The translations under genes were made by a program, and so were the position numbers. The notes beneath the pieces are model-generated. The model had not been told where the DNA came from. It was given only the letters and a program-made list of their open reading frames with translations, and ran no database searches. Positions 1,447 to 46,652 of a stretch of 52,400 bases of DNA are shown here, piece by piece. This DNA is from Brasilonema angustatum HA4187-MV1 (GTDB lineage Bacteria; Cyanobacteriota; Cyanobacteriia; Cyanobacteriales; Nostocaceae), in NCBI GenBank assembly GCA_019359695.1, contig JAHHGV010000055.1:1-52400 (forward strand), given 5' to 3'. Every line of letters begins with the position of its first letter. Position 1 is the first letter of the stretch.

Positions 1447-1468
1447 GTTAACGTAAAGTTACGGTAAC
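1447..1468. promoter_or_regulatory. 22-bp palindrome, copy 1
   Basis: GTTAACGTAAA then GTTACGGTAAC, flanked by CCC/GGG that extend the palindrome. It lies between the methyltransferase stop and the head-protein start on the minus strand, the usual place for this family just before a start codon. Confidence 0.85.
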
Positions 1469-1474
1469 GGGAAA

Positions 1475-2455
1475 TTAACGTCTTTGATAGTGCCTGAATA
1501 GTTGCTTAAGTATTGCCTCATACAACTTAGTCGGGACGCCATTCCCAATTATAGAACCAGCTACTCGTGTTTCTTCTGGCAAGATATACCAATGCGGCAT
1601 GGTTTGTAGCATCGCCATGTCTTTGATTGACAACGTTAACCAGTCGCCTTTATACCAAACATCAAAGAATGAGCGACGATTGCTGCCATGTGAATCTGAA
1701 AACAAAGCGCAGGTTATAACTGGTGCGGATTCCCAAAAATGTTTGACTGCTAAATTCTTGCCGTGATAGCTTCGCTTTTGTATCAGGAAAGTGTAAGAAT
1801 CAGGGTAGCATGTGCGTACTGCATTTAATGCATTGATTTGTGCTGGCGATGGACAGATTTCTTTCATGGATTCAATGCGATCGCCTAAAACCTCTCCCCA
1901 ACTAACAGGACGCTGCATCGGAGGTAAACCCACAGGTGTTCCATTGCGGCAACACGTCAAAAAAAGACGCTCCCTGCGCTGTGGGACGCCATAAAAGTTT
2001 GCATTAAGCACGTCATAAGTTATGCTGTAGCCTAGGTTGCTGAGTGCGCACATAATTAGTTTTATAGATTCTGTGGCAAAGTAACCCCTAACCTGCTCTA
2101 AAGTGAAATAGTATGGTCGTAGCGCGGTTATCGCATTCACTATACCAATTGCCGCTTTTAAGTCTTGCTCTGTTTCTTTCCCCTCAGAATTAGCTGCCGA
2201 AAAGTTTTTGCATGATGGGCTGGCGTGCAAAAGCATCCAGTCATCTCCCATGTAAGGAATCCAGTTCACTGATTCTACTGGGGTTCTTAAGAGTTCTGTA
2301 CTTGGATAGTTTTTTGCGTAGCAGTCGGCGATCGCAGTTGATAGCTCAACTCTGCCTGGGTCATACTCTACCGCTAGATCTGTCTTTAAACCCATTTCAT
2401 GAATAGCGGTGTCTAGGACACCACCACCGCTGAATAATACAGCAATTTTGCTCAT
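1475..2455 (-). CDS. DNA (cytosine-5) methyltransferase
   Basis: The protein would transfer methyl from S-adenosylmethionine to C5 of cytosine. It is 326 aa, the usual size for a stand-alone enzyme. Motif I is LFSGGGVLD (7-15). The catalytic loop is SPSCKNFS with Cys82, an SC in place of the common PC. Motif VI is LEQV, a variant of ENV, and motif VIII is PQRRER (about 158-163). Motif X, IGNGVPTKLYEAI, is near the C-terminus. No endonuclease gene is next to it, so self-protection, host-restriction evasion or regulation is likelier than restriction-modification. It starts 12 nt after the preceding gene with an AGAGGA-type ribosome site. The target is not predictable from sequence. Confidence 0.9.
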   Translation of the reverse strand: MSKIAVLFSGGGVLDTAIHEMGLKTDLAVEYDPGRVELSTAIADCYAKNYPSTELLRTPVESVNWIPYMGDDWMLLHASPSCKNFSAANSEGKETEQDLKAAIGIVNAITALRPYYFTLEQVRGYFATESIKLIMCALSNLGYSITYDVLNANFYGVPQRRERLFLTCCRNGTPVGLPPMQRPVSWGEVLGDRIESMKEICPSPAQINALNAVRTCYPDSYTFLIQKRSYHGKNLAVKHFWESAPVITCALFSDSHGSNRRSFFDVWYKGDWLTLSIKDMAMLQTMPHWYILPEETRVAGSIIGNGVPTKLYEAILKQLFRHYQRR

Positions 2456-2467
2456 AACTGTCCTCTG

Positions 2468-2740
2468 TTATTTTACTGATTTTTTAGTTCGTGTTTTTGT
2501 GGGCGCAGTTGGTATCTCTACTGGCTTAGGTGGGCAAAGAGTATTAGGATTAATTGGCTCTATAGTGTGTTTAAAAATCTTGAAATCAGTCCAGCCCTGC
2601 CTACGCATCATCATAATTACTTCCGTCACTTCTTCCAGCGATCGCAATTCTCCATCTGTCGCTGTCCGCACCCATCCTGGGCTGCTCACATGGTCGCCTT
2701 CCCACCAGTGATAAAGCTTATAAACTGTTAATTTGCTCAT
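2468..2740 (-). CDS. Small hypothetical phage protein
   Basis: 90 aa from the ATG of MSKLTVYKLYHWWEGD; an upstream in-frame ATG at 2764 lies inside the preceding gene and is less likely. The N-terminal half is compact, with YHWWEGD and SSPGWVRTATDGEL. The C-terminus is a Pro/Lys/Thr-rich tail (PTKTRTKKSVK) that looks disordered. No family is recognised. It is second in the operon that ends with the methyltransferase and head-protein genes, starting 1 nt after the stop of the first gene, which suggests translational coupling. Confidence 0.6.
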   Translation of the reverse strand: MSKLTVYKLYHWWEGDHVSSPGWVRTATDGELRSLEEVTEVIMMMRRQGWTDFKIFKHTIEPINPNTLCPPKPVEIPTAPTKTRTKKSVK

Positions 2741-2741
2741 T

Positions 2742-2927
2742 TTATCTGGATTTAATTTCAACAATTTCTTGACCTTTCCAAATTCTTGCAGCTCGCTCTT
2801 TCGCAGTTTTTTGGGTCAAATCATCACACACAACAAATATGCGATCATCTTCCTTAATCGCATGATTATTAGAAATGAATGCCGCATATAACTCTACTTT
2901 TGGCACAAATACAAAATACTTTTTCAT
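2742..2927 (-). CDS. Small hypothetical phage protein, first gene of the minus operon
   Basis: 61 aa starting MKKYFVFVPKVELYAAF and ending with IWKGQEIVEIKSR. The sequence alternates beta-like and charged segments and has no recognised motif. GGAAGGAAATG-like bases before the ATG supply a ribosome site. A strong promoter of the shared TGCCCA class lies at 2953-2981, and a 22-bp palindrome lies upstream of that, so this gene should head the operon that runs to the head protein. Confidence 0.55.
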   Translation of the reverse strand: MKKYFVFVPKVELYAAFISNNHAIKEDDRIFVVCDDLTQKTAKERAARIWKGQEIVEIKSR

Positions 2928-2952
2928 TTCCTTCCCATCACTTTATGCCTTT

Positions 2953-2981
2953 AATATGACATAATGGGCATAAAACGTCAA
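2953..2981 (-). promoter_or_regulatory. Promoter with TGCCCA operator in the spacer
   Basis: On the minus strand, TTGACG (2976-2981), a 17-nt spacer and CATATT (2953-2958). The spacer contains ATGCCCA, the half-site shared by other early promoters here. A 22-bp palindrome starts 6 nt upstream of the -35 box. Confidence 0.65.
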
Positions 2982-2987
2982 GTTCTG

Positions 2988-3009
2988 GTTATAGTAAAGT
3001 TACGGTAAC
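2988..3009. promoter_or_regulatory. 22-bp palindrome, copy 2
   Basis: GTTATAGTAAA then GTTACGGTAAC, in the divergent region between the minus-strand operon (start 2927) and the scaffold gene (start 3047). It could serve both directions. Confidence 0.85.
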
Positions 3010-3046: not shown

Positions 3047-3685
3047 ATGAACGATTACAGTAATGCTTTAGAGTTTTTAGGGAAGCAGGAAGGTGGTGCT
3101 GAGCACAAAGAAGCAGTGCTAGCTTATGTAAGAGTTGTACTGGAGGAAAGTAAAGATAAGCAAACTAAATTAAGAGATGCGACCGCAAAGCTTAAGCGAT
3201 TAAGTGAAGTGGCTGGCGGCACCGAAGAGGAGTTAGAAAATAAATTATCTGATTTGCAAAGACAGGTCAAGGAATTGACCACAGAGCGTGATAAATTAAA
3301 AACTACAACAGAAGCCGATACAAAAGAATTAGAGAAATTCAGGGCTGAAAAAGTACAGCGAGAGAAAGAAACTAAGATGAAATCGCTTGCTGAGAAAGCA
3401 GGCGCAGATTACGAAGCTTTTAATCAATTATTTAGCGATTTGCCTGTAGAACTTGTGGGCGAAACCGTAACGGTGAAAGAAGGGGAAAAATCTTTGAGTC
3501 TGGACGAGTATTTGCAAGCACAGCCTGCGTGGAAGAAAGCTGCACTATTTTCTAACCAGCAAGAGAGCCAAAACAACAAATTACCGGGTGCGCCACCAAG
3601 CGGAAACCAAGCCAGGGAAGGTGGCTACTTAGGGGATGCTTACATCAATAGCCGTTATAACCCAGCACGCTTTGGCAAAAAATGA
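3047..3685 (+). CDS. Capsid scaffolding protein, GP20-like
   Basis: 212 aa placed directly before the capsid genes, as scaffolds are. Residues 35-120 form a long charged coiled coil (KLKRLSEVAGGTEEELENK, then LSDLQRQVKELTTERDKLK). The C-terminal 40 residues are Gly/Asn/Pro-rich and end NPARFGKK, a basic tail of the kind that contacts the capsid shell. It would fill the procapsid during assembly and then leave or be cleaved. The start is the ATG after AGGTAGGG. Assignment rests on position, length and coiled coil; no catalytic residues are expected. Confidence 0.7.
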   Translation: MNDYSNALEFLGKQEGGAEHKEAVLAYVRVVLEESKDKQTKLRDATAKLKRLSEVAGGTEEELENKLSDLQRQVKELTTERDKLKTTTEADTKELEKFRAEKVQREKETKMKSLAEKAGADYEAFNQLFSDLPVELVGETVTVKEGEKSLSLDEYLQAQPAWKKAALFSNQQESQNNKLPGAPPSGNQAREGGYLGDAYINSRYNPARFGKK

Positions 3686-3688
3686 CTC

Positions 3689-3710
3689 GTTATCGTAACG
3701 TTACAGTAAC
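3689..3710. promoter_or_regulatory. 22-bp palindrome, copy 3
   Basis: GTTATCGTAAC then GTTACAGTAAC, with CTC/GAG flanks extending the palindrome. It begins 3 nt after the scaffold stop and opens the long leader of the capsid genes. Confidence 0.85.
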
Positions 3711-6319: not shown

Positions 6320-6678
6320 TGCCATTAACAACCATCGCTACTGCAATTGATGCTTTTGTCAAAATCCCCGCTGTTGCCCAGCTTTACGAAGATTCAGACC
6401 TCGCTCATGTAGAAAATATTCTCGTTTCTACAGCAGGCACCTTAAAGCAAGGAGGAGTAGGATATCGCATCTATGCTGCTGCCAAAGCTTACCTAGGTAC
6501 GCATCCTGAACTTAGATTTGTAGAAGTTCATGATGGAACCAAGATTGGCAATATTGATGCGCTATTAAAATCTTTTGACGCTTTACAAGCTCAGGAAGAC
6601 AACAATCTCTTTACAAAAACCGCTTTTCGCGTGACACCATTTATAACAACTAGTGTACGCAAATTCGCTGAGCCATGA
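6319..6678 (+). CDS. Head-tail connector-like protein
   Basis: 119 aa from ATG at 6319 (a GTG at 6316 would add one residue). The sequence is mostly helical, MPLTTIATAIDAFVKIPAVA, then AYLGTHPELRFVEVHDGTK. Length, helical character and place between capsid and tail-completion genes fit a neck protein that caps the portal. It overlaps the next gene by 4 nt (ATGA). No diagnostic motif is present, so the call depends mainly on synteny. Confidence 0.45.
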   Translation: MPLTTIATAIDAFVKIPAVAQLYEDSDLAHVENILVSTAGTLKQGGVGYRIYAAAKAYLGTHPELRFVEVHDGTKIGNIDALLKSFDALQAQEDNNLFTKTAFRVTPFITTSVRKFAEP

Positions 6679-7073
6679 GAAAAATACTGGGGTCTAGAAA
6701 AGTTTTCGAGCACGCCACCATCACCTTTGGGATAATCGAACCCACATGTGATTTGGACGAGCGTGGTAACTTTGCTCAAAAGAAAACCACAATAACCTTG
6801 GTGGCGCAGATAGATCGCAGTGGCACCAGCACTGGCAAGCAAGGAGATACTGAAGCTTACGCTACCAGTGAGCGCTTGATGAGTGGGCATTTGGTACAAC
6901 CAACTAAAATGCCATCAGGCTTAGTCCCAGGCATTATTGGTCGGATTGAATTTCCAGATGGAGAGATTAATAATTGTCGCTTGTTACCGTCTTCTCAGAT
7001 TTCATGGAAGATAATCAAATGCGATCGCATTAACTTATCCGTTGGTGCTGGTGCTATAGCTCGTCAAACCTAA
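6675..7073 (+). CDS. Head closure / tail adaptor-like protein
   Basis: 132 aa with beta-rich segments (ATITFGIIEPTCDLDERG, then TTITLVAQIDRSG; later IIGRIEFPDGEINNCRLLP). The ATGA overlap with the previous gene indicates coupling. Between the connector-like protein and the Mu gpG-like gene, phages normally encode a head-closure or stopper protein, and the size fits. No motif proves it. It is followed after 5 nt by a 22-bp palindrome. Confidence 0.45.
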   Translation: MRKILGSRKVFEHATITFGIIEPTCDLDERGNFAQKKTTITLVAQIDRSGTSTGKQGDTEAYATSERLMSGHLVQPTKMPSGLVPGIIGRIEFPDGEINNCRLLPSSQISWKIIKCDRINLSVGAGAIARQT

Positions 7074-7078: not shown

Positions 7079-7100
7079 GTTACCGTAACGTTACCATAAC
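7079..7100. promoter_or_regulatory. 22-bp palindrome, copy 4
   Basis: GTTACCGTAAC then GTTACCATAAC. It occupies the whole gap between two late genes and ends 2 nt before the ATG at 7103, so it replaces a normal ribosome site. Confidence 0.85.
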
Positions 7101-7102: not shown

Positions 7103-7531
7103 ATGGCTGCAACTTTTACCGTCAAAATAAACGAAAAAAGCCTGGGAAATTTCCGAGGGTTGCCGGATCAGATAAGGAATATGCGCAAGCCCATGCAAAA
7201 TGCTCTTGCTTATCTGGAAGCGGAAACCAAGAAACAGTTTGTATCCGAAACTGACCCAGATGGTCGTGCGTGGGCAAGTTTAAAACCCAGCACTTTGGCG
7301 AGGAAGAAAAGCGGAGCTATTGGGAGAGAAACGGGTGCGATGATCAACTCTATCTTTACCAGGTTAACGGGAGATCTGCAAGGAGAAATTGGTTTAAGCG
7401 TTGAGTATGCGCTTTACTTCAGCGAAGGAACAGAGAAAATGGCAGCGCGTCCAATCCTGGGATTTAATAATACTAGAGAAGCAAAAGTGATGTCACTTTT
7501 TGAGATCTATATAGGAGATCTTGTGAGATGA
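7103..7531 (+). CDS. Phage virion morphogenesis protein, Mu gpG-like
   Basis: 142 aa. It shows the family layout: an N-terminal helix (LRGLPDQIRN region), then ETDPDGRAWASLKPST with LARKKSG, and later RETGAMINSIF, the 'P.G..W..L…TG.L..S' pattern of tail-completion proteins. The C-terminal part has EYALYFSEGTEKMAARPILG. In other myophages this protein helps complete the tail or join head and tail. The start is directly after a 22-bp palindrome and lacks a clear ribosome site. It overlaps the next gene by 4 nt (ATGA). Confidence 0.75.
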   Translation: MAATFTVKINEKSLGNFRGLPDQIRNMRKPMQNALAYLEAETKKQFVSETDPDGRAWASLKPSTLARKKSGAIGRETGAMINSIFTRLTGDLQGEIGLSVEYALYFSEGTEKMAARPILGFNNTREAKVMSLFEIYIGDLVR

Positions 7532-9998: not shown

Positions 9999-10020
9999 GT
10001 TATCGTAACGTTATGGTAAC
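9999..10020. promoter_or_regulatory. 22-bp palindrome, copy 5
   Basis: GTTATCGTAAC then GTTATGGTAAC, between the tube-gene terminator and the assembly chaperone gene (ATG 10065). Confidence 0.85.
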
Positions 10021-14599: not shown

Positions 14600-14621
14600 G
14601 TTACCGTAACGTTACGATAAC
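14600..14621. promoter_or_regulatory. 22-bp palindrome, copy 6
   Basis: GTTACCGTAAC then GTTACGATAAC, between the gpD-like stop and the gpU-like start at 14643. The next copy to the right is 7.3 kb away, at 21890. Confidence 0.85.
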
Positions 14622-15967: not shown

Positions 15968-16397
15968 AGGGAAAATCTTCGTCTAGCATTAAGATCAATT
16001 ATCATGCATGATATAGCAGCGCCGGTAATAGTACACCTGATATCAAAACTGATAACAGTACAGCAGTAAGACAGTAATTGATGGGAGAACTAGACAACAT
16101 GCTGACGTTAGAGAAATCTTTCTCAAGCGATTAAGCAGTTCAACAGAATAGCTCAAATACAGGTAGAAGTATGTTTGTAGAAGCTAGTGAGAAAGAACAC
16201 GAAAAAACTTGAACCCTCTCCCCCTAATACAGCACTGAACACAGACTATCGTATAGAAAAAGTACAGACAGCCTGACAACACTTTTCTACACCTCGTAGA
16301 GAAAGTATCTATACATAGGTTCACAAAATCAGAGTCAACAATATATCTATGCAACGCTGCAAACTCTATGTTGTGTTCGCGTTAGAGAAAGATTTAC
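15968..16397. other. Gene-free region before the recombinase gene
   Basis: About 430 nt with no credible ORF. It contains the 28-bp repeat at 16105-16132, several GTAC/TATAC motifs, and a second partial copy, GTTAGAGAAAGATTTAC, just before the recombinase start. It may hold recombination sites and the recombinase promoter. Confidence 0.4.
16105..16132 (+). repeat. 28-bp imperfect direct repeat, left copy
   Basis: ACGTTAGAGAAATCTTTC then TCAAGCGATT. It matches 19158-19185 at 25 of 28 positions. The core GAGAAA-TC-TTTCTC is palindromic, as in tyrosine-recombinase core sites. It flanks the recombinase-partition block with the right copy, 3,053 bp apart. Confidence 0.5.
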
Positions 16398-17495
16398 ATG
16401 ACGGTGAAGCGTGCAAAAGGAACCAGTTGTCAATCACGCAGCGTGCCGTCAAGCCAGAGGCTTATCGCCTGTGAAATTGACCTTGAGATTGTTGAACTTC
16501 GTCAGCAAGAATCATACATATCGGCTACTTTTTTTTCATCAAAGAAATTGATCCTGGGGGATAATCAGACAGAAGAAATGTTTTGTCTGTTAACTCACTT
16601 CTTGACAATGACCCCTCTTGCCCTGGTTCATTCCATACGCGAGCGCAAGCAGTTGCGACACCTAGCACCTGTTGACGCTCAACAAAAACTCATTCAAATG
16701 TGGCTGCACGGCAAAGCGACTTTAACTCAGTCAGCTTACCAACGCATTATCACCAAGTTTTTGGGCTTTGTGGGAAAATCCTTACTTGAAGTCACGCTTG
16801 AAGATTTACACGATTACTGGATGCAATTGGAAGCAGAGGGAAATTCTCCAGTCACCCAAGAAAATCACCTGTCGGCTATCAAGTCGCTGTTTTCTTTCGC
16901 TGCCAAGATGGAGTATATCCCCTTTAATGTCGGCTGCGCTCTCAAAGTTAAGAAATCTGACGACAATCTGACTGAGCGCTATTTGACGAAAGTTGAGGTG
17001 GACCTGCTCATTAATGGGGCTACAAACACTCGTGATTTTATCATCTTAACTTTACTTTATAAAGGAGGATTGCGAGTGAGTGAACTGTGTGGGCTTACAT
17101 GGAAAGATTTGATGCCACGCGGCGACGGTGGACAAATAACGGTACTAGGGAAGGGGAATAAACGGCGTTCTATCCGACTGCCATTAGACCTTTGGCAGCT
17201 TCTTTTAAGCTTGAGAGGAAATGCCCCACCTGATGCCCCGGTGTTTATTAGCCGCAAAACCAAAGGACACTTGCACAGACAGAACATTCACCCGATTGTT
17301 AAGGCTGCTGCATTGCGTGCAGGGGTGAATGAAAAAGCTTCGTGCCACTGGTTGCGCCATGCTCATGCCACGCACAGTATTCAAAAGGGTACGAACCTTG
17401 CTTTGATTCAGAAGACTTTGGGACACAGCAATATCGCGATTACTAGTAAATACTTACACGCATTGCCTGATGATAGCAGCGCTTTGTATTTGTAG
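16398..17495 (+). CDS. Tyrosine recombinase / phage integrase family
   Basis: 365 aa. All catalytic residues are visible: Arg226 (GGLRVSEL), Lys252 (LGKGNKR), His317 and Arg320 (HWLRHAHATH), His343 (LGHSNIAIT) and the nucleophile Tyr352 (SKYLHA). The core-binding SAM-like domain is at about 90-190. The first 70 residues are unusual; starting at Met71 (16608) gives a canonical 295 aa, so the N-terminus may be mis-set. It lies between two 28-bp imperfect repeats with the partition genes. It could integrate the element, resolve multimers or mobilise the local 3-kb block. It is not at a prophage edge, where integrases usually are. Confidence 0.85.
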   Translation: MTVKRAKGTSCQSRSVPSSQRLIACEIDLEIVELRQQESYISATFFSSKKLILGDNQTEEMFCLLTHFLTMTPLALVHSIRERKQLRHLAPVDAQQKLIQMWLHGKATLTQSAYQRIITKFLGFVGKSLLEVTLEDLHDYWMQLEAEGNSPVTQENHLSAIKSLFSFAAKMEYIPFNVGCALKVKKSDDNLTERYLTKVEVDLLINGATNTRDFIILTLLYKGGLRVSELCGLTWKDLMPRGDGGQITVLGKGNKRRSIRLPLDLWQLLLSLRGNAPPDAPVFISRKTKGHLHRQNIHPIVKAAALRAGVNEKASCHWLRHAHATHSIQKGTNLALIQKTLGHSNIAITSKYLHALPDDSSALYL

Positions 17496-19157: not shown

Positions 19158-19185
19158 ACGTCAGAGAAATCTTTCTTCAGCGATT
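19158..19185 (+). repeat. 28-bp imperfect direct repeat, right copy
   Basis: ACGTCAGAGAAATCTTTC then TTCAGCGATT, three mismatches from 16105-16132. It overlaps the 3' end of the small ORF at 19161-19340, a typical position for an attachment site. Confidence 0.5.
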
Positions 19186-21889: not shown

Positions 21890-21911
21890 GTTATCGTAAC
21901 TTTACGATAAC
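21890..21911. promoter_or_regulatory. 22-bp palindrome, copy 7
   Basis: GTTATCGTAAC then TTTACGATAAC, 4 nt upstream of the promoter at 21857-21885 and 5 nt from the stop of the next gene. Confidence 0.85.
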
Positions 21912-22234: not shown

Positions 22235-22256
22235 GTTATGGTAAAGTTACGATAAC
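22235..22256. promoter_or_regulatory. 22-bp palindrome, copy 8
   Basis: GTTATGGTAAA then GTTACGATAAC, 35 nt upstream of the -35 box at 22194-22199. A small dispersed repeat (GCGTAGCGTGCCCATAGGGC) follows at about 22279-22299. Confidence 0.85.
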
Positions 22257-22716: not shown

Positions 22717-22738
22717 GTTATGGTAACGTTACGGTAAC
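22717..22738. promoter_or_regulatory. 22-bp palindrome, copy 9
   Basis: GTTATGGTAAC then GTTACGGTAAC, 33 nt upstream of the weak -35 position of the preceding promoter. Confidence 0.85.
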
Positions 22739-24041: not shown

Positions 24042-24063
24042 GTTATAGTAACGTTACGGCAAC
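24042..24063. promoter_or_regulatory. 22-bp palindrome, copy 10
   Basis: GTTATAGTAAC then GTTACGGCAAC, upstream of the amidoligase promoter by about 38 nt. Confidence 0.85.
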
Positions 24064-25078: not shown

Positions 25079-25100
25079 GTTACCGTAACGTTACGGTAAC
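25079..25100. promoter_or_regulatory. 22-bp palindrome, copy 11 (perfect)
   Basis: GTTACCGTAAC then GTTACGGTAAC, the only fully symmetrical copy. It lies 31 nt upstream of the minus-strand ATG at 25047, too close for a promoter between them. Confidence 0.9.
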
Positions 25101-29160: not shown

Positions 29161-29354
29161 CGCTTCCCTCCGGTTACCGTAACTTTACGATAACGGTGAA
29201 ACTTTAATGCATTTAGTTCTTGAGTCGTAAGCTTGGTTGTTCTTTTGATAGGTTTTTGCCTGCGGCGAGGGAACTTCTCAAACAAAACAACGGCAACACT
29301 ACTAATTGAACTAAATTTCAAGTCTTGCATTGCTTGCTCTACAGTCATTTTCAT
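29157..29354 (-). CDS. Small basic protein whose 3' end contains a 22-bp palindrome
   Basis: 65 aa from MKMTVEQAMQDLKFSS; the ATG is 2 nt after the upstream stop. The C-terminal third is basic (RRRQKPIKRTTKL, FHRYRKVTVTGGKR). The last codons, for YRKVTV, are the 22-bp palindrome itself. The regulatory element is thus kept even where it must be read as protein. Function unknown. Confidence 0.5.
   Translation of the reverse strand: MKMTVEQAMQDLKFSSISSVAVVLFEKFPRRRQKPIKRTTKLTTQELNALKFHRYRKVTVTGGKR
29173..29194. promoter_or_regulatory. 22-bp palindrome, copy 12
   Basis: GTTACCGTAAC then TTTACGATAAC, within the 3' coding end of one gene and 12 nt before the start of the next (29160), inside the long minus-strand operon. 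Confidence 0.85.
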
Positions 29355-31368: not shown

Positions 31369-31390
31369 GTTACGGTAACGTTACGGTAAC
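31369..31390. promoter_or_regulatory. 22-bp palindrome, copy 13
   Basis: GTTACGGTAAC then GTTACGGTAAC. It overlaps the stop codon of the ribbon-helix-helix gene and lies between converging genes, the only copy not just upstream of a start. Confidence 0.85.
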
Positions 31391-31560
31391 CGAGGGCTAT
31401 TTTTTTCTGAGTGAGCAAATTCCTTATAAGTGATCCGAATGGATTCACGAACAAGATCCGTAATACTGCGCCCAGTTTTTTCGCTGACAGCAGCAAGAAG
31501 TTCCATCTCAATTTTTGCTAAATTGATTGTGAGTCGTTTACTAACCCATTGCTTTGACAT
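31381..31560 (-). CDS. Ribbon-helix-helix protein
   Basis: 59 aa from MSKQWVSKRLTINLAKIEME. Strand KRLTINLAKI, helix 1 MELLAAVSEKTG and helix 2 SITDLVRESIRITYKEF give a CopG/Arc-like fold. It overlaps the end of the preceding frame by 20 nt. Its last codons are part of a 22-bp palindrome. This makes it one candidate, among several ribbon-helix-helix proteins here, for the factor that binds that element, but nothing in the sequence proves it. Confidence 0.65.
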   Translation of the reverse strand: MSKQWVSKRLTINLAKIEMELLAAVSEKTGRSITDLVRESIRITYKEFAHSEKNSPRLP

Positions 31561-34870: not shown

Positions 34871-34892
34871 GTTACCGTAAAGTTACGGTAAC
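34871..34892. promoter_or_regulatory. 22-bp palindrome, copy 14
   Basis: GTTACCGTAAA then GTTACGGTAAC, 11 nt upstream of the helicase ATG, with TTG/CAG flanks. Confidence 0.85.
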
Positions 34893-35269: not shown

Positions 35270-35291
35270 GTTATCGTAAAATTACGCTAAC
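35270..35291. promoter_or_regulatory. 22-bp palindrome, copy 15
   Basis: GTTATCGTAAA then ATTACGCTAAC, overlapping the stop of the 293-aa gene and upstream of the small Cys-rich gene. The gene-free stretch 35131-35286 otherwise holds TTGACA (minus, 35163-35168) and the TGGGCA…TGCCCA palindrome at 35124-35140. Confidence 0.8.
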
Positions 35292-36297: not shown

Positions 36298-36528
36298 ATG
36301 GCATTAAAACAAATTACAGTCCGCCCAAGTTTAGCGGAATACAAAGCCCTTGAAAACTGGCGAATATTAAATGAACAGCCCACGGAATCGGCTGCAATGT
36401 CTGAGTTGCTACGTAGGTTTTTCGACGGAGGCTACAGAAGAAGCTCAAAATATCGCATAACCAAAGTCAGAAAGGAGCTAGAGGCATTATTATCTGAGTC
36501 TTCTAAAGCAAAAAAAAATAACACTTAA
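36298..36528 (+). CDS. Ribbon-helix-helix-like regulator
   Basis: 76 aa. Strand LKQITVRPSLA, helix EYKALENWRIL and second helix ESAAMSELLRRFFDGGY fit a ribbon-helix-helix, followed by a basic helix (RRSSKYRITKVRKELEALL). It is divergent from the 293-aa gene with a shared inverted-repeat promoter, so autoregulation is plausible. AAAAAAGT precedes the ATG without a clear ribosome site. Confidence 0.6.
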   Translation: MALKQITVRPSLAEYKALENWRILNEQPTESAAMSELLRRFFDGGYRRSSKYRITKVRKELEALLSESSKAKKNNT

Positions 36529-36557
36529 TTTAATAATTTATACAAGGAGGCACTAAA

Positions 36558-36857
36558 ATGAATACACGTAAATCCACAAAAGAACCAAACCCGTTAAAAC
36601 CTAAAGTACAAGGATTAACTTACGCAGAACAGCAAACCAGAAAGCTAAGGATAGCTGCATATGTAGATGAAGATCTATTAGCGCAGCTAGATGATTGGTG
36701 CAAACAAAATAACAAGGATCGCGGTGCCGCAATGCGTTATATTATGCGTACCATGCTAAATGTTCAAGATAATGCGGATGATACTGCTGTTAACCAATGT
36801 ATTTCTATATTGGAAGAATTGACAGATCGCATCCGCTTATCGAACGCGACCTGCTAA
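36558..36857 (+). CDS. Ribbon-helix-helix protein
   Basis: 99 aa after ACAAGGAGGCACT, a near-perfect ribosome site. Residues 28-68 contain RKLRIAAYVDEDLLAQLDDW and NKDRGAAMRYIMRTML, strand and two helices. The N-terminus is basic and disordered. It lies 30 nt after the preceding regulator and is probably co-transcribed. A second DNA-binding protein in one operon suggests a regulatory switch. Confidence 0.65.
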   Translation: MNTRKSTKEPNPLKPKVQGLTYAEQQTRKLRIAAYVDEDLLAQLDDWCKQNNKDRGAAMRYIMRTMLNVQDNADDTAVNQCISILEELTDRIRLSNATC

Positions 36858-36917: not shown

Positions 36918-36939
36918 GTTGCAGTAACGTTACGGTAAC
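36918..36939. promoter_or_regulatory. 22-bp palindrome, copy 16
   Basis: GTTGCAGTAAC then GTTACGGTAAC, the only copy without GTTA at the left end. It is downstream of the two ribbon-helix-helix genes. An AAGCGCAGT/ACTGCGCTT hairpin follows near 36979-37007. Confidence 0.8.
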
Positions 36940-37308: not shown

Positions 37309-37363
37309 AATTGCGATGTATGGATATATGCACTACAATGCTATCACAGCATTCATTTTTCCC

Positions 37364-38613: not shown

Positions 38614-38698
38614 AATTGACGATAAGAGCAAGCTCGTTTGCAAAATCAACAATTCAGACTATTAATCACATTAAATATTACATAGAATAGATTATATA

Positions 38699-39970
38699 AT
38701 GAATCGCGCCCTTTCAGTTTTTGCTCGTCCAATCCCATACCACAAGGAACTGCGCAACATAACGGGTTCTGTGCTTTCAGCTATCCTCATGCAGCAGTTA
38801 GAATTCCGCTTTGACGGGACTGGCGATGGGTTCTATAAATTTATGCAACCTTGCCAGCACAAAGCTTACAGAGAAGGCGACTCTTGGGAAGAAGAGTTGA
38901 ATTTTTCTGTAGGAGAATTTCGCACAGCCTTTGACCGAATTGGCATTCGTTATAAGTCAAAACGTGAATACTCTGTAGCTCTTGCCAAGGGAGAAGTGTT
39001 TGGCGAGGACAATAAGTATATGTACTGCTCTTATCACGACAAAATCAAAGGACTTACCTTTTACTTCCGCAATCATCAAAAGGTTGCTGAACAAGTGGAA
39101 GTTTTAACTCATGGGGAGCCTATTTACGTAACTAAGCAAAAGAAATCTACGGAAATGAAGAATCCTGATTCACGTAAATTAAAAATTGTCAGTTACGTAG
39201 CTGAGGAATCCTCCGATCATCTATATACAGAGAATACTTCAGAGAATAACTATCCAGAGAATACATACACAGAAGAGCATATGGAACTTTTTCAAGAAGT
39301 CTCTGAGTTAGTGTCGGATGAAATTGACTGGGACAGCATTAAGCTGTTAAATAACACAGAGGAGCAAAATTACGATCTCTCTTTTACTCCGGAAGAGCCA
39401 CCAGAAACTTTGATAGAAAACGAGATCACTCATGAGGACAAAATTCCCGCGCCCGCAGCAGCATCATTCGACAAAAGCGAACAACCGAACTATCAGCTAA
39501 TAGAAAGTGTTGAAAGCCTGCCTTTGATGCCTGGGAGCAAACGGCTAATCCTTCCTTGGGAAAACCCAGGGCACAGTCGCAACGACTTGTACAAATGGGA
39601 CTTTGCTGAATGGCTGTACACTTCTCACTTGAAACAATGCAGCACCTTTACTAAAGATGGGTTCCGAAAAAATAAAAATCGTGTGCGGAACTATCTTTTA
39701 AAAGCCCACAGCGACGCAACTAGATTGGAAACCCTTGCTAACTTTTGGAATGAATTTGTCACTAACTTGACCCCAGTAGTAACTTCTTCTCAATCCCCTC
39801 TAGAAAGCTTTCTAACCCGTTGCGGAGATGAATTAAGAAGGATTGTCCTTAGAAACAATTTCACACAAGCTGAGATTCAAAATATCGCCGAGTGCTGGGA
39901 AGCAGCTAACAAGGATGAGGAGTTAGTTATTATGATGATGGAGCGCTCAGGACTTATTGATGATTTTTGA
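38699..39970 (+). CDS. Replication-initiator-like protein with winged-helix N-terminus
   Basis: 423 aa. Residues 8-140 look like the winged-helix domain of phage and plasmid initiators: YHKELRNITGSVLSAILMQQ, FYKFMQPCQHKAYREGD, then WEEELNFSVGEFRTAFDRIG. A long acidic linker (about 175-275) and a helical C-terminal domain (FRKNKNRVRNYLLKA, ELRRIVLRNNFTQAEIQ) follow. Four 23-bp iterons lie inside the gene, coding for the linker start, as origins lie in lambda O-type genes. The helicase-loader-like gene lies 1.7 kb downstream. Direct evidence for initiation is absent. Confidence 0.65.
   Translation: MNRALSVFARPIPYHKELRNITGSVLSAILMQQLEFRFDGTGDGFYKFMQPCQHKAYREGDSWEEELNFSVGEFRTAFDRIGIRYKSKREYSVALAKGEVFGEDNKYMYCSYHDKIKGLTFYFRNHQKVAEQVEVLTHGEPIYVTKQKKSTEMKNPDSRKLKIVSYVAEESSDHLYTENTSENNYPENTYTEEHMELFQEVSELVSDEIDWDSIKLLNNTEEQNYDLSFTPEEPPETLIENEITHEDKIPAPAAASFDKSEQPNYQLIESVESLPLMPGSKRLILPWENPGHSRNDLYKWDFAEWLYTSHLKQCSTFTKDGFRKNKNRVRNYLLKAHSDATRLETLANFWNEFVTNLTPVVTSSQSPLESFLTRCGDELRRIVLRNNFTQAEIQNIAECWEAANKDEELVIMMMERSGLIDDF
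39123..39214 (+). repeat. Array of four 23-bp iterons inside the initiator-like gene
   Basis: Units start at 39123, 39146, 39169 and 39192, exactly 23 bp apart: TTTACGTAACT…, TCTACGGAAATGAAGAATCC…, TTCACGTAAATT…, and GTTACGTAGCTGAGG then AATCCTCC. The last unit differs by only three bases from the best unit at 11163. 23 is not a multiple of 3, so codon repetition cannot explain the period. Confidence 0.75.
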
Positions 39971-40501: not shown

Positions 40502-40523
40502 GTTATCGTAACGTTACGCTAAC
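40502..40523. promoter_or_regulatory. 22-bp palindrome, copy 17
   Basis: GTTATCGTAAC then GTTACGCTAAC, between divergent genes, 27 nt upstream of the -35 box at 40551. Confidence 0.85.
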
Positions 40524-40550: not shown

Positions 40551-40579
40551 TTGATTTATTATGCCCGATTGGGCATAAT
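40551..40579 (+). promoter_or_regulatory. Promoter with full TGCCC…GGGCA operator
   Basis: TTGATT (40551-40556), 17 nt, CATAAT (40574-40579). The palindrome ATGCCCGATTGGGCAT (40561-40576) fills the spacer and overlaps the -10 box. Confidence 0.7.
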
Positions 40580-41718: not shown

Positions 41719-42306
41719 ATGAATGTTGAGATTGTCAAAGCAGTAACAAAAATGCTTTCTGATTTTAACAAATATTTTAGTTACTTGCATGGAAAAACGA
41801 ACATAGTAGAAATAGAGTTACCCAAGGAAGCCATTATGGTTTGGGTAAAGATTTTTGAAGGTTTAACGCGGGAAGAACGCCAATCTGCTATAGAAAAAGT
41901 CTACGAGCACTACAGTTATCATCCAACGCCGCAGCAGTTCCGTGAGTTGGTGAAAGAATCAGAAAGCGCGGATGCACTTTCTGAATGGATCGTTGTTCTT
42001 GATGCATTAAGAATGTCTGCTGACGATGCAAGAGATAGGGTTGAGTGCTTATCTCCTCATGCTCGTCGTGCTTTGCAGACAGTTGGTGGGTTATCTGGGA
42101 TTGGAATGTGCCCAGAAGCTGCTTTGCACAAATCTGTGAAAGAAGATTTTTGTTTGGCTTGGAAACTCATTAAGAATAGCACAATTCCTCACCCGTTAGA
42201 AGCGCAATTCAACCATACCAGAAGTGTTGAACCTGTTATTGATGTGAGTTCTCGCATAGGCGCTTTTTCTGCCAGCTTCGGTACTTTGAGTGATTCTGAT
42301 GGTTAG
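41719..42306 (+). CDS. Helicase-loader-like protein
   Basis: 195 aa. Residues 35-75, AIMVWVKIFEGLTREERQSA, then EHYSYHPTPQQFRELVKE, resemble the N-terminal domain of phage helicase loaders/inhibitors of the G39P type, which have 'W…L……A…….FPPT..EIRE'. The rest is helical with no ATPase motif, as for that family. It lies downstream of the initiator-like gene, as in a replication module. Similarity is weak and by eye. Confidence 0.45.
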   Translation: MNVEIVKAVTKMLSDFNKYFSYLHGKTNIVEIELPKEAIMVWVKIFEGLTREERQSAIEKVYEHYSYHPTPQQFRELVKESESADALSEWIVVLDALRMSADDARDRVECLSPHARRALQTVGGLSGIGMCPEAALHKSVKEDFCLAWKLIKNSTIPHPLEAQFNHTRSVEPVIDVSSRIGAFSASFGTLSDSDG

Positions 42307-42323
42307 CGTAACGTTACGGTAAC
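42302..42323. promoter_or_regulatory. 22-bp palindrome, copy 18
   Basis: GTTAGCGTAAC then GTTACGGTAAC. It overlaps the stop codon of one gene and ends 5 nt before the ATG of the next (42329). Confidence 0.85.
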
Positions 42324-42620: not shown

Positions 42621-42642
42621 GTTAACGTAAAATTACCATAAC
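42621..42642. promoter_or_regulatory. 22-bp palindrome, copy 19
   Basis: GTTAACGTAAA then ATTACCATAAC, 4 nt upstream of the -35 box TTGTCA. Confidence 0.85.
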
Positions 42643-42702: not shown

Positions 42703-44958
42703 ATGACAAAGATAGAAATTATTCAGTCAGCAATCAAAAGCACTCAAGAAGAAATTGAGCAATTGAGAGCTAAACGAACAAGCAAAGCAAACACTCGAAA
42801 AATTGAAGAAGGCGAAATTAAGCTTGCAAACTTAAGTGCATTCTTCAATTTAGTAGAAAAAGGTGGATCTTTGGATAGCTTGTATGTTGCCAAAAGCATA
42901 GGTGAAGAAGTTCACAAGATTTACCAAGTTTTTGACAATGGCGAAGTAGAGCTTGAAACTTTTCAAGACGAAGTGTTTAAAGCTAACCTTAGCGACTTAA
43001 TGTATGACGAAAAAGCAACTAGTGAATCTCCCGCCATAGATTCAGTGGTGATTCTTAGGTCTGGAGAGGAGTGCAAGCTAGTGCGGTTGATTTACCCAGG
43101 GCAAATAGAAGTAGAAGGTAAGTCTGGCTTAATCCCATCTTCTGATTGGACACTTAGTAATGTTGCGGTGCCAGAAGAGTTCGCTGTGCTGCCACAACAA
43201 GAAGAAAATCAAACACAGCTTCCAGAAGGCGTTCCCAAAGTTGTTTTTTTGGATACTCCAATTGAAAAAATTGTTGGGAGTTACCGTTTTATTATTGGAA
43301 AAACAGAACAAGATGATTTCATTGGGCAGTTGTTTGAGGTTTTGTCTAAGCAAGAATCCCAACTTGTCATTCAAACCGAACCAAGCAAAAGGTTTCATTG
43401 GGTGCGCTCAGTTTTGGTTTTGAAATATCACCAAGACAAAAAACCATTGCAGGCAGGCGATAAACTGAATTTTGATCCTTGGTTACTGGCATTTCCTTCT
43501 GAAAATCAGGAAGCTTACCATCCTACAGATGACGAGGAAGACGTATCCGATATTCAAGAGGACTTAATGAGTGGTAAGCCAATTCTGCAAGCCGTTGGAG
43601 TTAGTACCAATGGAGAAACCTTCTCAGGATATAGGCGAACGCTTGCAGCCATAAACGCTGGTCTGGAAACAATTCCAATTGATGTGCGTCAATTTGAAAC
43701 GAGAGTGGAATTCATTGAAGCCTTATTTGATGCGAACAAGACTCGTGAAAAAACACCAGAAATTAAAGCACGTGAGCGTGACATTAGATTCAAGTATTGT
43801 TCCGAAGAAGCCAAGCAGGCACAGTTAGCGCGTTTGCGTGATCCTTCTGGTACAAAGAACCCACTTGCTTTAGGATCTGCTTGGGAGCGAACAGTTGCTA
43901 ATGAGCCAGATATTAGCCCATCGACAGCCGCTGCGCAATCTCGAATCCTTCAGTTTATTGATCATTCTCCTGATAGAGAGATGGCAACAAAAATCCGAGA
44001 AGTTTTTAACTCTGGGGACAAGAAAACAAAGACCTGCGAGGATTTAATTAAGTATAGCCAGCATGCTCCTGCTGATGCCAGAACTGCTGCGGATATGATC
44101 TTGAACGGGGATGCATCTAGTGTTCCTAAAGCGATCGCAAAAAACAACAAACTCTCCCCATTTGCCAAAAGAGAAACGCCAGAAGGTGTCCACATTCCTC
44201 CTAGTGGAACTATTCCACCTAATAGAGCAGAGTCTACCCAGTCATCTTCCCCTGTTTTGCCTCCTAATCTTATGCGCTTGGTTGCAAATACTCTGGGAAG
44301 AATTGACATTGATATTCTTAGTGCAAATGCTTCCTCAAATGCAACACATCATTTTACTGGCGCATCTGACAAATTAAACGCTTTAAAAGCTGATTGGCAA
44401 ATTCCTGGTAAGCGAGGTGCTTGTAAAGTATTTGGTTGCCTTTATGTTGATAATTTGCTTGAATGGATTCAAGCATTATCTGCGCAATGGGTTAAAGGCA
44501 ATATTGCAGAAGCTGTTATTTTTGTCGCCAACCCTGCTCTTAGTGTACGCAACGCTCTTAAAGGAATTGCTGCTGTTTCTGGTGAAATCTTGTTCCCTGT
44601 AGAACTTACCGTTGCAAATCAGTTTTATGCAAAAGCAGAAATGACGGTGTATTACCTGGGTGGTAGTTGGCAAAAGTTCGCCAACATCTTTGAACCATTT
44701 GCTGATGTCCGAATTAGACGCTGGGCATTTGAACCAAATATTACGCCACTTGCTTTTGACGATAGTGAATTGCATTGGCAAGAAAGCACCAACGGTTCCA
44801 GCGCTCAATACAAGGGCATGAGGCTTTCAATTATCGAAACGATGGATGGATCTTGGTATGCCGAAGTTAATGGGCAAAAAATCTCTGAAAACCTAGAAAG
44901 CAAAGCGCAAGCTAAAACCATTGCCGCAACCGCAGCAGATCAACTGAGTGCTGCCTAA
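42703..44958 (+). CDS. ParB-like domain protein with a degenerate Dam-type methylase region
   Basis: 751 aa. Residues 1-45 form a coiled coil. Around 285-345 lies a ParB/sulfiredoxin-like part (DLMSGKPILQAVGVS, SGYRRTLAAINAGLETIPID). Residues 410-500 are helical and may bind DNA. The C-terminal 230 residues follow the layout of phage N6-adenine methylases (CKVFGCLYVDNLLEWIQAL, EAVIFVANPA, VYYLGGSWQKFANIF), but the expected (N/D)PPY reads GCLY, so catalysis looks lost. It may be a DNA-binding scaffold. The preceding promoter and palindrome put it in the early regulon. Confidence 0.55.
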   Translation: MTKIEIIQSAIKSTQEEIEQLRAKRTSKANTRKIEEGEIKLANLSAFFNLVEKGGSLDSLYVAKSIGEEVHKIYQVFDNGEVELETFQDEVFKANLSDLMYDEKATSESPAIDSVVILRSGEECKLVRLIYPGQIEVEGKSGLIPSSDWTLSNVAVPEEFAVLPQQEENQTQLPEGVPKVVFLDTPIEKIVGSYRFIIGKTEQDDFIGQLFEVLSKQESQLVIQTEPSKRFHWVRSVLVLKYHQDKKPLQAGDKLNFDPWLLAFPSENQEAYHPTDDEEDVSDIQEDLMSGKPILQAVGVSTNGETFSGYRRTLAAINAGLETIPIDVRQFETRVEFIEALFDANKTREKTPEIKARERDIRFKYCSEEAKQAQLARLRDPSGTKNPLALGSAWERTVANEPDISPSTAAAQSRILQFIDHSPDREMATKIREVFNSGDKKTKTCEDLIKYSQHAPADARTAADMILNGDASSVPKAIAKNNKLSPFAKRETPEGVHIPPSGTIPPNRAESTQSSSPVLPPNLMRLVANTLGRIDIDILSANASSNATHHFTGASDKLNALKADWQIPGKRGACKVFGCLYVDNLLEWIQALSAQWVKGNIAEAVIFVANPALSVRNALKGIAAVSGEILFPVELTVANQFYAKAEMTVYYLGGSWQKFANIFEPFADVRIRRWAFEPNITPLAFDDSELHWQESTNGSSAQYKGMRLSIIETMDGSWYAEVNGQKISENLESKAQAKTIAATAADQLSAA

Positions 44959-44968: not shown

Positions 44969-44990
44969 GTTATCGTAACGTTACGGTAAC
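44969..44990. promoter_or_regulatory. 22-bp palindrome, copy 20
   Basis: GTTATCGTAAC then GTTACGGTAAC with CTG/CAG flanks, between the ParB-like gene stop and the ATG at 45009. Confidence 0.85.
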
Positions 44991-45008
44991 CAGTTTTAGA
45001 GGTGCTCT

Positions 45009-45299
45009 ATGAAAGAATCAACAAATATTTTAATTTCTGATTTAGAAGCAAAAGCTTTCAAGTCAGATTTCTCTTTGTATCATGAAGTTCTTAACAAAGC
45101 AAGAACAGGTTATTATCATTCCTGCAAAAGTCCTTTATCTGATCCTGAGCAGGCTTTGATTTTGGATTTAGTCAAGCTTGGTTTTTATGATTTGATTATT
45201 AAAGCGCATAGTGGCGCGTATGAAACGACTTTTGCCGAGGCGGATGTTTGGTTGCAATTAGATCTTAGCGTGGTAATGAAGTTTATTAAACAACAGTAA
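45009..45299 (+). CDS. Hypothetical protein, 96 aa
   Basis: MKESTNILISDLEAKAFKSD to SVVMKFIKQQ, with AGAGGTGCTCT before the ATG. Helical, with HEVLNKARTGYYHSC and DPEQALILDLVKLGFYDLII. No family is recognised. It is followed by a two-way terminator and converges with the DUF932 gene. Confidence 0.55.
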   Translation: MKESTNILISDLEAKAFKSDFSLYHEVLNKARTGYYHSCKSPLSDPEQALILDLVKLGFYDLIIKAHSGAYETTFAEADVWLQLDLSVVMKFIKQQ

Positions 45300-45323
45300 T
45301 AAACAACAAGCAGTAATATAAAA

Positions 45324-45354
45324 AAGGAAGGTTTTAAACCTCCCTTGTTTTTTT
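45324..45354. terminator. Bidirectional terminator
   Basis: AAGGAAGGTTT and AAACCTCCCTT pair with one mismatch; A-run on the left and T-run on the right, so it can stop transcription from both converging genes. Confidence 0.7.
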
Positions 45355-45390
45355 CTTTTTATGTATGAAGGCTGTTAAGAGCAGCCTTTG

Positions 45391-46563
45391 CTAAAATCCT
45401 TTTACTGTAACCGCTTGAGTGTTTTTGTTTTGGCGTTTAAGAAAGTTGTGCTCAAGTGCATTAAGAACTCTGTTTTCAACCTGGGCTTTCCCGCCATGCC
45501 ACATGCTGTGAATGTGAGATTCTCCAGTGCTACGGCTATGGTGGTTAAGTTGTTCAGTGACACAGTTCAAAAGTTCCCACGCATTATTGTTGCTAGCCTC
45601 TAAGTGAGATCCAATGCTGGTGTGGTTAGCATAGTTATAATAAGCTTGCCGAACCAGTTTACTTTGGTCATAAAAAGACTTGAGGCGATCGCTGTTTTCT
45701 TCCTTGTCGCCTAGCGTTTCAATCAAGAAGTCTTTAGCCTCCCGATTGCTGATTGGAGTTTGTGCCAACTCATCAATCAACTGACCCAAGTTTGCGAAAT
45801 TGTTCTTTGAACTTTCCAGAATTGCGTTTACTGATGCTTTTGAAAAGGATTGATTATGCCCTATAGAGCGCGTACCAACGTTAACCTTGCGAGTGATACC
45901 GTTGCAGCAAACAAGCCGGACTGCGCTTAATTTAGCGGTAAGCCCTGCGCCATACTCGTGTGAGTTTGTGAGTATCAGGCGACCGCAAATGACATCATCT
46001 GTTCCCATGACTGCCCATGATTCATTAACAACCGCGCTGGCAAACACTAGGCGACCGTCGCGCAGACTGCCTAGGCGTTCCATTTCAATTCCTGCGATCG
46101 CACAAAACTCATCAAAAGCATTCACTACCTCACGATTTTGATAAGGCTGCCAAGTGTCGTTAGTAACGCCAAAGAGTAGCCCTGTATCTCCCCTATACAC
46201 TGCTTGCTGCTGCGTATTGAGAAATTCCATGTTTTTCCCGTATTTCATCAAAGATGTTTCAGTTTCCCAATTAAGCCCTGCGTGCTTAAGCTTCTCGTCT
46301 AAGCTCCACTCTGACTCAACTGCGACGCCCACTCCCTTGTAATAAGCATCGTTGATCATGCCTTTGTAACCATTTTGCTTAAAGCGCTCTTTAATCTCAG
46401 ATGCCGCTAATTTCACCTTGTCTTTGTCAAAGTGAAAGCCTTGCTCGTATTGCTCATTTTTAAGCGCTTCTGGCTTAAAATCAAACTCTAAGTTAAAGCC
46501 GCCATCTAAAGAAGCGTCTGAAATGCCATGTTCTTCAAAACTCATAGCTGAAATCTCATTCAC
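45391..46563 (-). CDS. DUF932 phage/plasmid-like protein
   Basis: 390 aa. Features of the DUF932 family (TIGR03299 type) are NTQQQAVYRGDTGLLFGV, YQNREVVNAFDEFC, then RLVFASAVVNESW, LILTNSHEYGAGLTAKLS and RLVCCNGIT. These proteins are common in phages and plasmids, often highly expressed, with no proven activity. It has its own near-consensus promoter with a full operator, so it is a single-gene unit in the early regulon. The ORF is full length. Confidence 0.8.
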   Translation of the reverse strand: MNEISAMSFEEHGISDASLDGGFNLEFDFKPEALKNEQYEQGFHFDKDKVKLAASEIKERFKQNGYKGMINDAYYKGVGVAVESEWSLDEKLKHAGLNWETETSLMKYGKNMEFLNTQQQAVYRGDTGLLFGVTNDTWQPYQNREVVNAFDEFCAIAGIEMERLGSLRDGRLVFASAVVNESWAVMGTDDVICGRLILTNSHEYGAGLTAKLSAVRLVCCNGITRKVNVGTRSIGHNQSFSKASVNAILESSKNNFANLGQLIDELAQTPISNREAKDFLIETLGDKEENSDRLKSFYDQSKLVRQAYYNYANHTSIGSHLEASNNNAWELLNCVTEQLNHHSRSTGESHIHSMWHGGKAQVENRVLNALEHNFLKRQNKNTQAVTVKGF

Positions 46564-46572
46564 TACTTCTTT

Positions 46573-46601
46573 AGTATGCCCATATGGGCATGTATTGTCA
46601 A
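46573..46601 (-). promoter_or_regulatory. Promoter with perfect TGCCCA…TGGGCA operator
   Basis: Minus strand: TTGACA (46596-46601), 17 nt, CATACT (46573-46578). The perfect palindrome ATGCCCATATGGGCAT spans 46576-46591. The best member of the class. Confidence 0.75.
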
Positions 46602-46630
46602 TGATTTTCTGGCTATTTTTTTATATTATG

Positions 46631-46652
46631 GTTATTGTAACGTTACGATAAC
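46631..46652. promoter_or_regulatory. 22-bp palindrome, copy 21
   Basis: GTTATTGTAAC then GTTACGATAAC, between the divergent DUF932 and methyltransferase genes, 8 nt before the ATG at 46661. Confidence 0.85.

Follow-up and report, generated by a model that had tools for sequence, protein, structure and literature searches.

Dispersed 22-bp palindromes at gene junctions of a Brasilonema phage-plasmid element as candidate operators of one predicted DNA-binding protein

The complete contig C15 of the nitrogen-fixing cyanobacterium Brasilonema angustatum HA4187-MV1 (52,400 bp, hereafter the window; the host genome comprises 8.5 Mb in 98 contigs) carries a phage-like element in which 21 copies of a 22-bp palindrome are dispersed. 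These sites are specific to the element, are kept by selection, lie at gene junctions, are symmetric at the level of the DNA, and are reworded at the same junctions of a distant relative. The chances are judged about even that they serve as dispersed operators or roadblocks for one predicted DNA-binding protein of the phage-plasmid.

The window is also present as IMG/VR record 3300036389_000002, and the element extends from it onto host contig C43 (~5.95 kb there), giving a total of roughly 60 kb by alignment to its counterpart in Brasilonema sp. CT11, contig C351 of genome G004 (taken as NZ_JABXYX010000004.1 and compared over the first 100 of 143 kb; hereafter the CT11 element). The longer matches between the two elements are 92–98% identical, with roughly 95% identity overall. 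Genes for a major head protein, tail sheath, tape measure, head morphogenesis, and large terminase were recognized by PHROGs or Pfam, the gene lists being the analysts' choice among mechanically called open reading frames (ORFs). A more distant relative is plasmid2 of Scytonema sp. NIES-4073 (76,644 bp), which has homologues of the window capsid (61% identical), sheath, tape measure, and terminase genes. Because this plasmid shares the capsid and many further genes with the window element, the two are assigned, on gene content, to one phage-plasmid group, in which phage structural genes are seen on a replicating plasmid in the case of plasmid2 only. A capsid query against IMG/VR returned the window record and one relative, ParB-like and ribbon-helix-helix (RHH) queries returned the window record alone, and no capsid match was found among GenBank phages. 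The RHH query in 386 cyanobacterial genomes, a sample that cannot have contained the known relatives, matched the element's own genome only.

All 21 copies listed in a first-pass annotation of this DNA were recovered at its coordinates (Table 1), each within three mismatches of the consensus reported there, with none in 100 shuffles. Two additional copies lie on C43, at 4199 and 5881. The consensus over these 23 sites is GTTAYNGTAAMKTTACNRTAAC, in which the core blocks GTTA, GTAA, TTAC, and TAAC are separated by the freer positions Y-N, M-K, and N-R; only 3 departures occur among the 368 core positions (16 per site). The proposed architecture was a palindrome made of two near-palindromic halves; the 11-bp halves keep 3–5 of 5 internal pairs, and a perfect 22-bp palindrome is present only at 25079. 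The favored flanks are CTG before and CAG after the site. The statement that twelve or so copies extend into matching flanks was too high, exact matches being found over 3 bp in 5, over 2 bp in 9, and over 1 bp in 13 of the 21 copies; the flank consensus is a base preference from which pairing covariation is absent.

A 22-nt palindrome is able to fold, and the sites might be RNA hairpins in transcripts, acting as terminators or leader structures. However, pairing at the free positions of the arms was no commoner than in shuffled sets, whether in the window (23 sites), in plasmid2 (28), or in the Nostocaceae contig G668:C68 (13). Since the arms do not covary, this explanation was rejected and is given next to no probability; the symmetry is attributed instead to protein contacts on DNA. 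Lone 11-bp half-sites occur at chance level (1 versus 1.65), and thus the 22-bp unit is what counts.

The other 97 host contigs yielded two more copies at ≤1 mismatch, both being those on C43. At ≤2 mismatches on the forward strand, 27 matches were found in the host genome, of which 21 are on C15, two on C43, and four, each with two mismatches, elsewhere; the reversed control gave 11. The first-pass annotation had made its interpretation depend on the motif not being equally dense throughout the host chromosome, and outside C15 and C43 only chance-level matches were indeed found. Exact matches in 99 genomes, the host's own included, were confined to that genome and G004 (n = 21, those listed all on C351). 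Every one of the 23 sites has a counterpart in the CT11 element, and between the two elements the core differs at 1 of 368 positions, the free positions at 13 of 138, and the flanks (≤150 bp on each side) at 353 of 6507 alignment columns. At the flank rate, ~20 core changes would be expected, and the single one seen restores the consensus in CT11. Thus, 16 of the 22 bases are under selection. A scan of IMG/VR with the window word returned 49 stretches, six of them from the window record; of the other 43, 41 contain a single copy, and these single-copy matches are probably near chance.

With respect to placement, 20 of the 21 sites are mostly intergenic even though 86.6% of the window is coding (p = 6e-17), the exception being that at 29173. 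Eight sites lie ≤25 nt from a start codon, a gap in which a promoter would hardly fit, and nine overlap a stop codon or lie ≤12 nt after it. The original statement that the sites stand directly upstream of a promoter or start codon is not supported as a general rule, many sites being at 3′ ends. Likewise, copy 13 (31369) is not alone between converging genes, as had been thought: the site at 36918 lies between the RHH ORFs 36558–36857(+) and 37177–37308(−). A second palindrome, ATGCCC-N4-GGGCAT, has three copies in the window, at 40561 (40561..40576), 41654, and 46576, and its half motif TATGCCCA occurs nine times on either strand. Since six of these nine motifs lie ≤90 nt from a 22-bp site (p = 1e-5), some junctions seem, from the motif positions, to carry two kinds of operator. 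This proximity, together with nine sites located 31–103 nt before starts, could favor the previously raised alternative that the palindromes are activator sites upstream of promoters. That alternative is nonetheless considered quite improbable: it fits poorly where a site is 2–21 nt from a start codon, and several sites are at 3′ ends or convergent junctions. Blocking fits better than activation because of the eight sites close to start codons.

More detailed information came from the comparison with plasmid2, in which a related but altered word, GTYARRGAAANNTTTCYYTRAC, is present in 28 copies at ≤2 mismatches, mostly with C before and G after; 30 places had been found, and those at 9379 and 16618 (3 and 4 mismatches) were dropped. 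The same altered word has 25 copies in a second relative, C25, taken as the Scytonema metagenome contig JAAUSC010000009.1 (loci L093–L096). The window word at ≤1 mismatch is found in neither plasmid2 nor C25, and 11 of the 12 matches to the altered word at ≤1 mismatch in the NIES-4073 genome (9.8 Mb) are on plasmid2. Across 32 orthologous genes (a list compiled by hand) with 64 ends, and with a site counted if ≤150 bp away, both elements have a site at 16 ends, only the window element at 4, only plasmid2 at 8, and neither at 36 (Fisher p = 3.6e-6). Because facing ends share a site, these counts are partly dependent; tested separately, the 5′ ends gave p = 0.0026 and the 3′ ends p = 0.001. The 16 shared ends come down to 13 sites, 11 of them in the window and two on C43, the plasmid2 partner of each having the altered word; the pair 3689/52027 looks, by eye, like a further shared junction. 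Thus, at corresponding junctions of plasmid2, the window word is replaced by the altered word. As a separate observation, the two central bases of the plasmid2 word are mostly GA or TC and are complementary in only 1 of 28 copies, versus 10.4 expected, which gives the site a polarity; by eye, no rule was seen that links the orientation of this center to gene direction in plasmid2.

Three copies of the plasmid2-type word (≤2 mismatches), at 16107, 16381, and 19160, occur in the window itself and were absent from the earlier list of sites. All three lie within a 4.4-kb insertion (15039–19456) that is absent from the CT11 element, and no further plasmid2-type copy was found in the window at this threshold. 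The insertion encodes an integrase, a PIN toxin pair, an antitoxin-like RHH protein, and ParA, the toxin-pair names being our recognition by eye. Its main genes are 93–99% identical to plasmid2 proteins, versus about 35–68% for most other shared genes, and the 22 bases of the site at 16381 are identical to those at plasmid2 55923. The insertion seems to have come from a plasmid2-type element and to carry that element's word still. Since the altered word in the window is confined to this plasmid2-like module, the word travels with DNA. Both words were found in elements of one host genus.

Another explanation is that the palindromes are linker sequences kept for homologous exchange of modules at gene borders. 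Five alignment breaks between plasmid2 and C25 lie 0–8 bp from a site, one plasmid2 site matches, by eye, a half-site and a full site 10.4 kb apart in C25, and events of the same type were described by the authors of a study of Cluster O mycobacteriophages (PMC4351075). However, most of the plasmid2/C25 breaks are not at sites, and those near sites may only mean that, within an intergenic stretch, conservation ends with the site. Furthermore, the near-total conservation of a symmetric core with free positions in between, and the use of one word per element, point to a protein. A linker role is accordingly assigned a small probability.

If the sites are operators, the binder would sit as two dimers on the two adjacent 11-bp half-sites, an arrangement that fits an RHH protein. 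Sites overlapping a promoter or leader would let it block initiation, and sites between genes would let it block elongation; in this way it could keep a dormant element silent, with immunity determined by site type. Apart from the symmetry of the site, such action would resemble that of Cluster A mycobacteriophage stoperators. Of the candidates compared, four are common to the window and plasmid2 groups, three of them RHH-like (31381–31560, 36298–36528, and 36558–36857) and one ParB-like (42703–44958) (Table 1). Because the site consists of two 11-bp half-sites, we lean toward an RHH protein as the putative binder. The RHH protein 36558–36857, modelled without an alignment, gave a mean predicted local distance difference test score (pLDDT) of 61; its plasmid2 ortholog has no Pfam match, and the alternating strand residues R31, A33, and Y35 are identical. 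Certain strand residues of RHH proteins usually touch DNA, and, these being the same in both groups, no RHH candidate plainly explains the altered base. The ParB-like protein, with a Pfam ParB_N match at E 0.075 only, is the only candidate whose gene has a site ≤150 bp upstream in both groups.

Table 1. Positions in the window of the 22-bp sites, the altered-word sites, and the candidate binders. Sites 1–21 are 22 bp each and have no strand; the partner is the plasmid2 site at the corresponding gene end.
Feature	Position	Strand	Context	Partner or ortholog in plasmid2
Site 1	1447..1468		between head-morphogenesis gene 517–1443(−) and gene 1475–2455(−), presumably a C5 DNA methylase (by eye)	55180
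Site 2	2988..3009		37 nt before gene 3047, which we take to be scaffold-like (by eye)	52907
Site 3	3689..3710		3 nt past stop of 3047–3685	52027 in same junction by eye, not counted by script
Site 4	7079..7100		occupies gap 6675–7073 / 7103–7531	48790
Site 5	9999..10020		one core mismatch; 44 nt before 10065	none
Site 6	14600..14621		before 14643–15035	41373 and 39842, despite swapped gene order
Site 7	21890..21911
Site 8	22235..22256		close to TATGCCCA motif
Site 9	22717..22738		close to TATGCCCA motif
Site 10	24042..24063		single core mismatch; CT11 has consensus base there
Site 11	25079..25100		sole perfect palindrome
Site 12	29173..29194		12 nt before gene 28894–29160(−), wholly inside end of small ORF 29157–29393(−)
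Site 13	31369..31390		overlaps stop end of RHH gene 31381–31560(−)	12603
Site 14	34871..34892		11 nt before gene 32139–34859(−), presumably UvrD-like (by eye)
Site 15	35270..35291		overlaps stop of 35287–36168(−)	16880
Site 16	36918..36939		one mismatch in core; 60 nt past end of RHH gene 36558–36857	15033
Site 17	40502..40523
Site 18	42302..42323		overlaps stop of 41719–42306; 5 nt before 42329	11480
Site 19	42621..42642		60 nt before ParB-like gene 42703	11125
Site 20	44969..44990		10 nt after ParB-like gene	8655
Site 21	46631..46652		8 nt before methylase gene 46661, then small terminase-like gene	3261
Altered-word site	16107..16128		in insertion; 2 mismatches to plasmid2-type pattern, 4 to window type
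Altered-word site	16381..16402		overlaps start of integrase gene 16398; 1 mismatch to plasmid2 type, 4 to window type
Altered-word site	19160..19181		near other end of insertion; 2 mismatches to plasmid2 type, 5 to window type
Candidate binder	36298..36528	+	small protein, no Pfam match; start presumably RHH-like (own reading)	ortholog, ~50% identity
Candidate binder, RHH protein	36558..36857	+	RHH_1 E 0.006, below Pfam cut-off	ortholog
Candidate binder, 59-aa RHH protein	31381..31560	−	profile match to partition protein ParG 1p94, E 7e-4	ortholog
Candidate binder, ParB-like	42703..44958	+	lies between sites 19 and 20; PHROG match to ParB-like partition protein, E 8e-4	ortholog, 42–43% identity

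The nature of these candidates bears on the proposal, also raised in the first-pass annotation, that the palindromes serve in partition, as centromere sites scattered over a plasmid prophage like those known from N15. They would be read by a ParB-, ParR-, or ParG-like protein, or else have a double use like that of the KorB sites of RK2. The relative is a 76.6-kb plasmid, the ParB-like gene has sites on either side in both groups, and the 59-aa RHH protein resembles ParG. In addition, an actin-like gene followed by a ParR-like RHH gene lies just to the left of the window (C43 about 112–1457; CT11 C351 35949–37405), the names actin-like (ParM-like) and ParR-like being ours by eye, as Pfam gave no match. 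Against this, ParA and an RHH protein are encoded in an inserted module that is missing from the CT11 element, whose sites all persist; the ParR-like and actin-like proteins were not found in plasmid2; truncated nitrogenase genes on contigs of chromosome size (G637 and G741) have sites beside them as well; and partition gives no account of placement at so many junctions. The proposal is thus weakened, and partition is regarded as rather unlikely.

Several other candidate binders were tried and set aside. ParA and the antitoxin-like RHH protein were rejected as binders of the window word because the CT11 element lacks their inserted module and yet retains every site. The ParR-like protein, not found in plasmid2, is not supported as binder of both words. 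A winged-helix-like protein (30207–30593) has no match in plasmid2, and the members of its family, present in 76 of 217 Nostocaceae genomes, stand, by eye, mainly on contigs other than those listed as bearing the word. The ParB-like protein was not retained as a binder for all elements, being found, among the contigs searched, in the window and plasmid2 groups only. RHH_5 as a family of common binders is likewise unsupported; profile comparison of the RHH candidates 36558, 36298, and 31381 with this family gave probabilities of 39, 0.4, and 29, respectively.

In the wider Nostocaceae, a merged pattern has at least one match in 27 of 217 genomes and at least two in ten, whereas its reversed control never gave more than one per genome (12 genomes); single matches are therefore taken to be near chance. 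Contig G668:C68 contains 14 sites at ≤1 mismatch of this pattern, and of 13 aligned, 13 have A before and 11 have T after. Three genomes, G637, G644, and G741, have a truncated nitrogenase component-1 gene (266 aa; Pfam Oxidored_nitro) with a site 11 to 40 bp past its end; nifD and nifH are names that we give from the gene order. At ≤1 mismatch, six sites fall in a 12.3-kb stretch of G637. Full matches number two in G644 and one in G741, which has in addition a two-mismatch site beside the truncated nitrogenase gene. In G637 (L110 and L111), the nitrogenase gene seems interrupted at two places, and the first interruption adjoins 22-bp sites. The gene 47934–48455, whose position before the large subunit suggests the label small terminase-like, has relatives in G741, C116, and G668:C68, each lying 56 to 113 bp after a site (in G741, the two-mismatch one).

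Several points weigh against operators read by one element-encoded protein. Sites at 3′ ends or between convergent genes occur where repression has no obvious job. No RHH candidate has a site in its own upstream region, even though regulators usually control themselves. When eight candidate families were sought in 24 contigs or stretches, some of them partial, none was found in all site-bearing elements, and of 20 RHH_5 neighborhoods (among the matches listed), 17 have no site at ≤3 mismatches; the others have, respectively, one full match, a one-mismatch and a two-mismatch match, and one three-mismatch match. Contigs C116 and G023:C4 are mixed, each having a single site of either type. Finally, the Cluster O authors held a transcriptional role of their similar repeats to be unlikely (PMC4351075). 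The two mixed contigs, and the little gene content common to site-bearing elements, could instead favor a host-encoded silencer or nucleoid protein aimed at such elements. However, the words sort by element rather than by host genus, and by inserted module within one element, and the host chromosome is without any good site, so that a host reader is thought very unlikely. For the element as a whole, the earlier claim of an element-wide set of sites for one predicted protein, much like stoperators, is supported, the set being specific, selected, placed at junctions, and reworded in the relative.

Additional features of the elements were noted. A 393-bp segment of the tail sheath gene (window 8272–8664) is inverted relative to the CT11 copy and splits the reading frame in the window, while the sheath frame in plasmid2 is single and open; the inversion may be due to a switch, to a defect, or to the assembly. 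The large terminase gene (48430–51246) and the UvrD-like helicase gene (32139–34859) both look, by eye, to be intein-interrupted, and ~0.8 kb of the window terminase insertion, with HNH-like ORFs, is missing from CT11. A second, distant capsid homologue (26% identity) is encoded in the host genome (G000 contig C3, 60672–61631). In plasmid2 (L089–L092), ~16.6 kb (23247–39892) are not present in C25, with the right border at the site at 39896 and another site 54 bp before it; a 3020-aa ORF within this region is, by eye, presumably a nonribosomal peptide synthetase.

A broader proposal, which we put forward tentatively and hold to be doubtful, is that variants of one 22-bp word, each read by its own protein, are common to phage-plasmids, plasmid-like elements, and nitrogenase-interrupting elements of heterocystous cyanobacteria. 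Networks of more than 20 sites would then have been rewritten together when the specificity of the reader changed, moved modules would arrive with the word they had before, and the words may sort the elements into groups of compatibility or immunity and link those of nitrogenase genes to this phage group. If the operator interpretation is true, a second lineage, far from mycobacteria, would have one protein controlling a whole phage genome via dozens of sites, and the matched pair of elements, with 13 or more sites differing in step, would be a natural experiment on change in the recognition sequence of a regulon. The sites beside truncated nitrogenase genes bear on the old question of a phage origin for the elements that interrupt such genes.

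Among known systems, operators of Arc/MetJ-type RHH proteins consist of two adjacent half-sites about one helical turn apart, usually with one or few operators. The window sites similarly seem to need paired half-sites together, as no excess of lone halves was found, but differ in being distributed as one site per gene junction. Dispersed partition sites, as of N15 and KorB, come with a cognate ParA and ParB conserved along with them. Here, by contrast, ParA lies in an insertion absent from the CT11 element, and the ParB-like protein was found, among the contigs searched, in the window and plasmid2 groups only. KorB of RK2, a ParB-like clamp protein, acts on palindromic sites and silences over long range (PMC11790492), and here, too, a ParB-like gene is flanked by sites; however, the KorB operators differ in sequence from the window word, and no single ParA gene is present in all elements compared. 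No cyanophage equivalent of the dispersed palindromes was apparent from a narrow literature search judged by titles and abstracts. The start-associated sequences of Cluster K mycobacteriophages are also repeats at gene starts but are 13 bp, asymmetric, and mostly in one orientation (PMC3203893), whereas the window sites are symmetric and also at 3′ ends.

The Cluster A stoperators (L5) comprise as many as 30 dispersed sites, with similar but non-identical motifs in relatives, in the excerpted account of PMC6550527. Here, too, there are many dispersed element-specific sites, and the motif differs between relatives while positions are kept. Unlike the symmetric 22-bp window site, however, stoperators have a 13-bp asymmetric core predominantly in one orientation to transcription (PMC6550527, same account), and their repressor is known (PMC6550527; PMC9283540, as excerpted), whereas the binder here is putative. 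Because the defining asymmetry and orientation are lacking, the window network would work like stoperators but is not a member of that class. In form, the window sites are closest to the Cluster O palindromes. In the portion of PMC4351075 devoted to these repeats, Corndog is described as having 34 dispersed 17-bp palindromes, with similar ones in its relatives, with invariant arms, a variable center, and no known function; they are absent from two host genomes and other mycobacteriophages and stand mostly at the same positions in relatives, with some deletions between sites. The window sites are likewise dispersed and element-specific, with invariant arms. The Corndog palindrome is TGTTCGGNNNCCGAACA and the window consensus GTTAYNGTAAMKTTACNRTAAC, about a third of the Cluster O repeats lie in coding regions versus 1 of 21 here, and the change of word between relatives found here is not described in that portion of PMC4351075. 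An answer on the function of the window sites could also carry over to the Cluster O palindromes.

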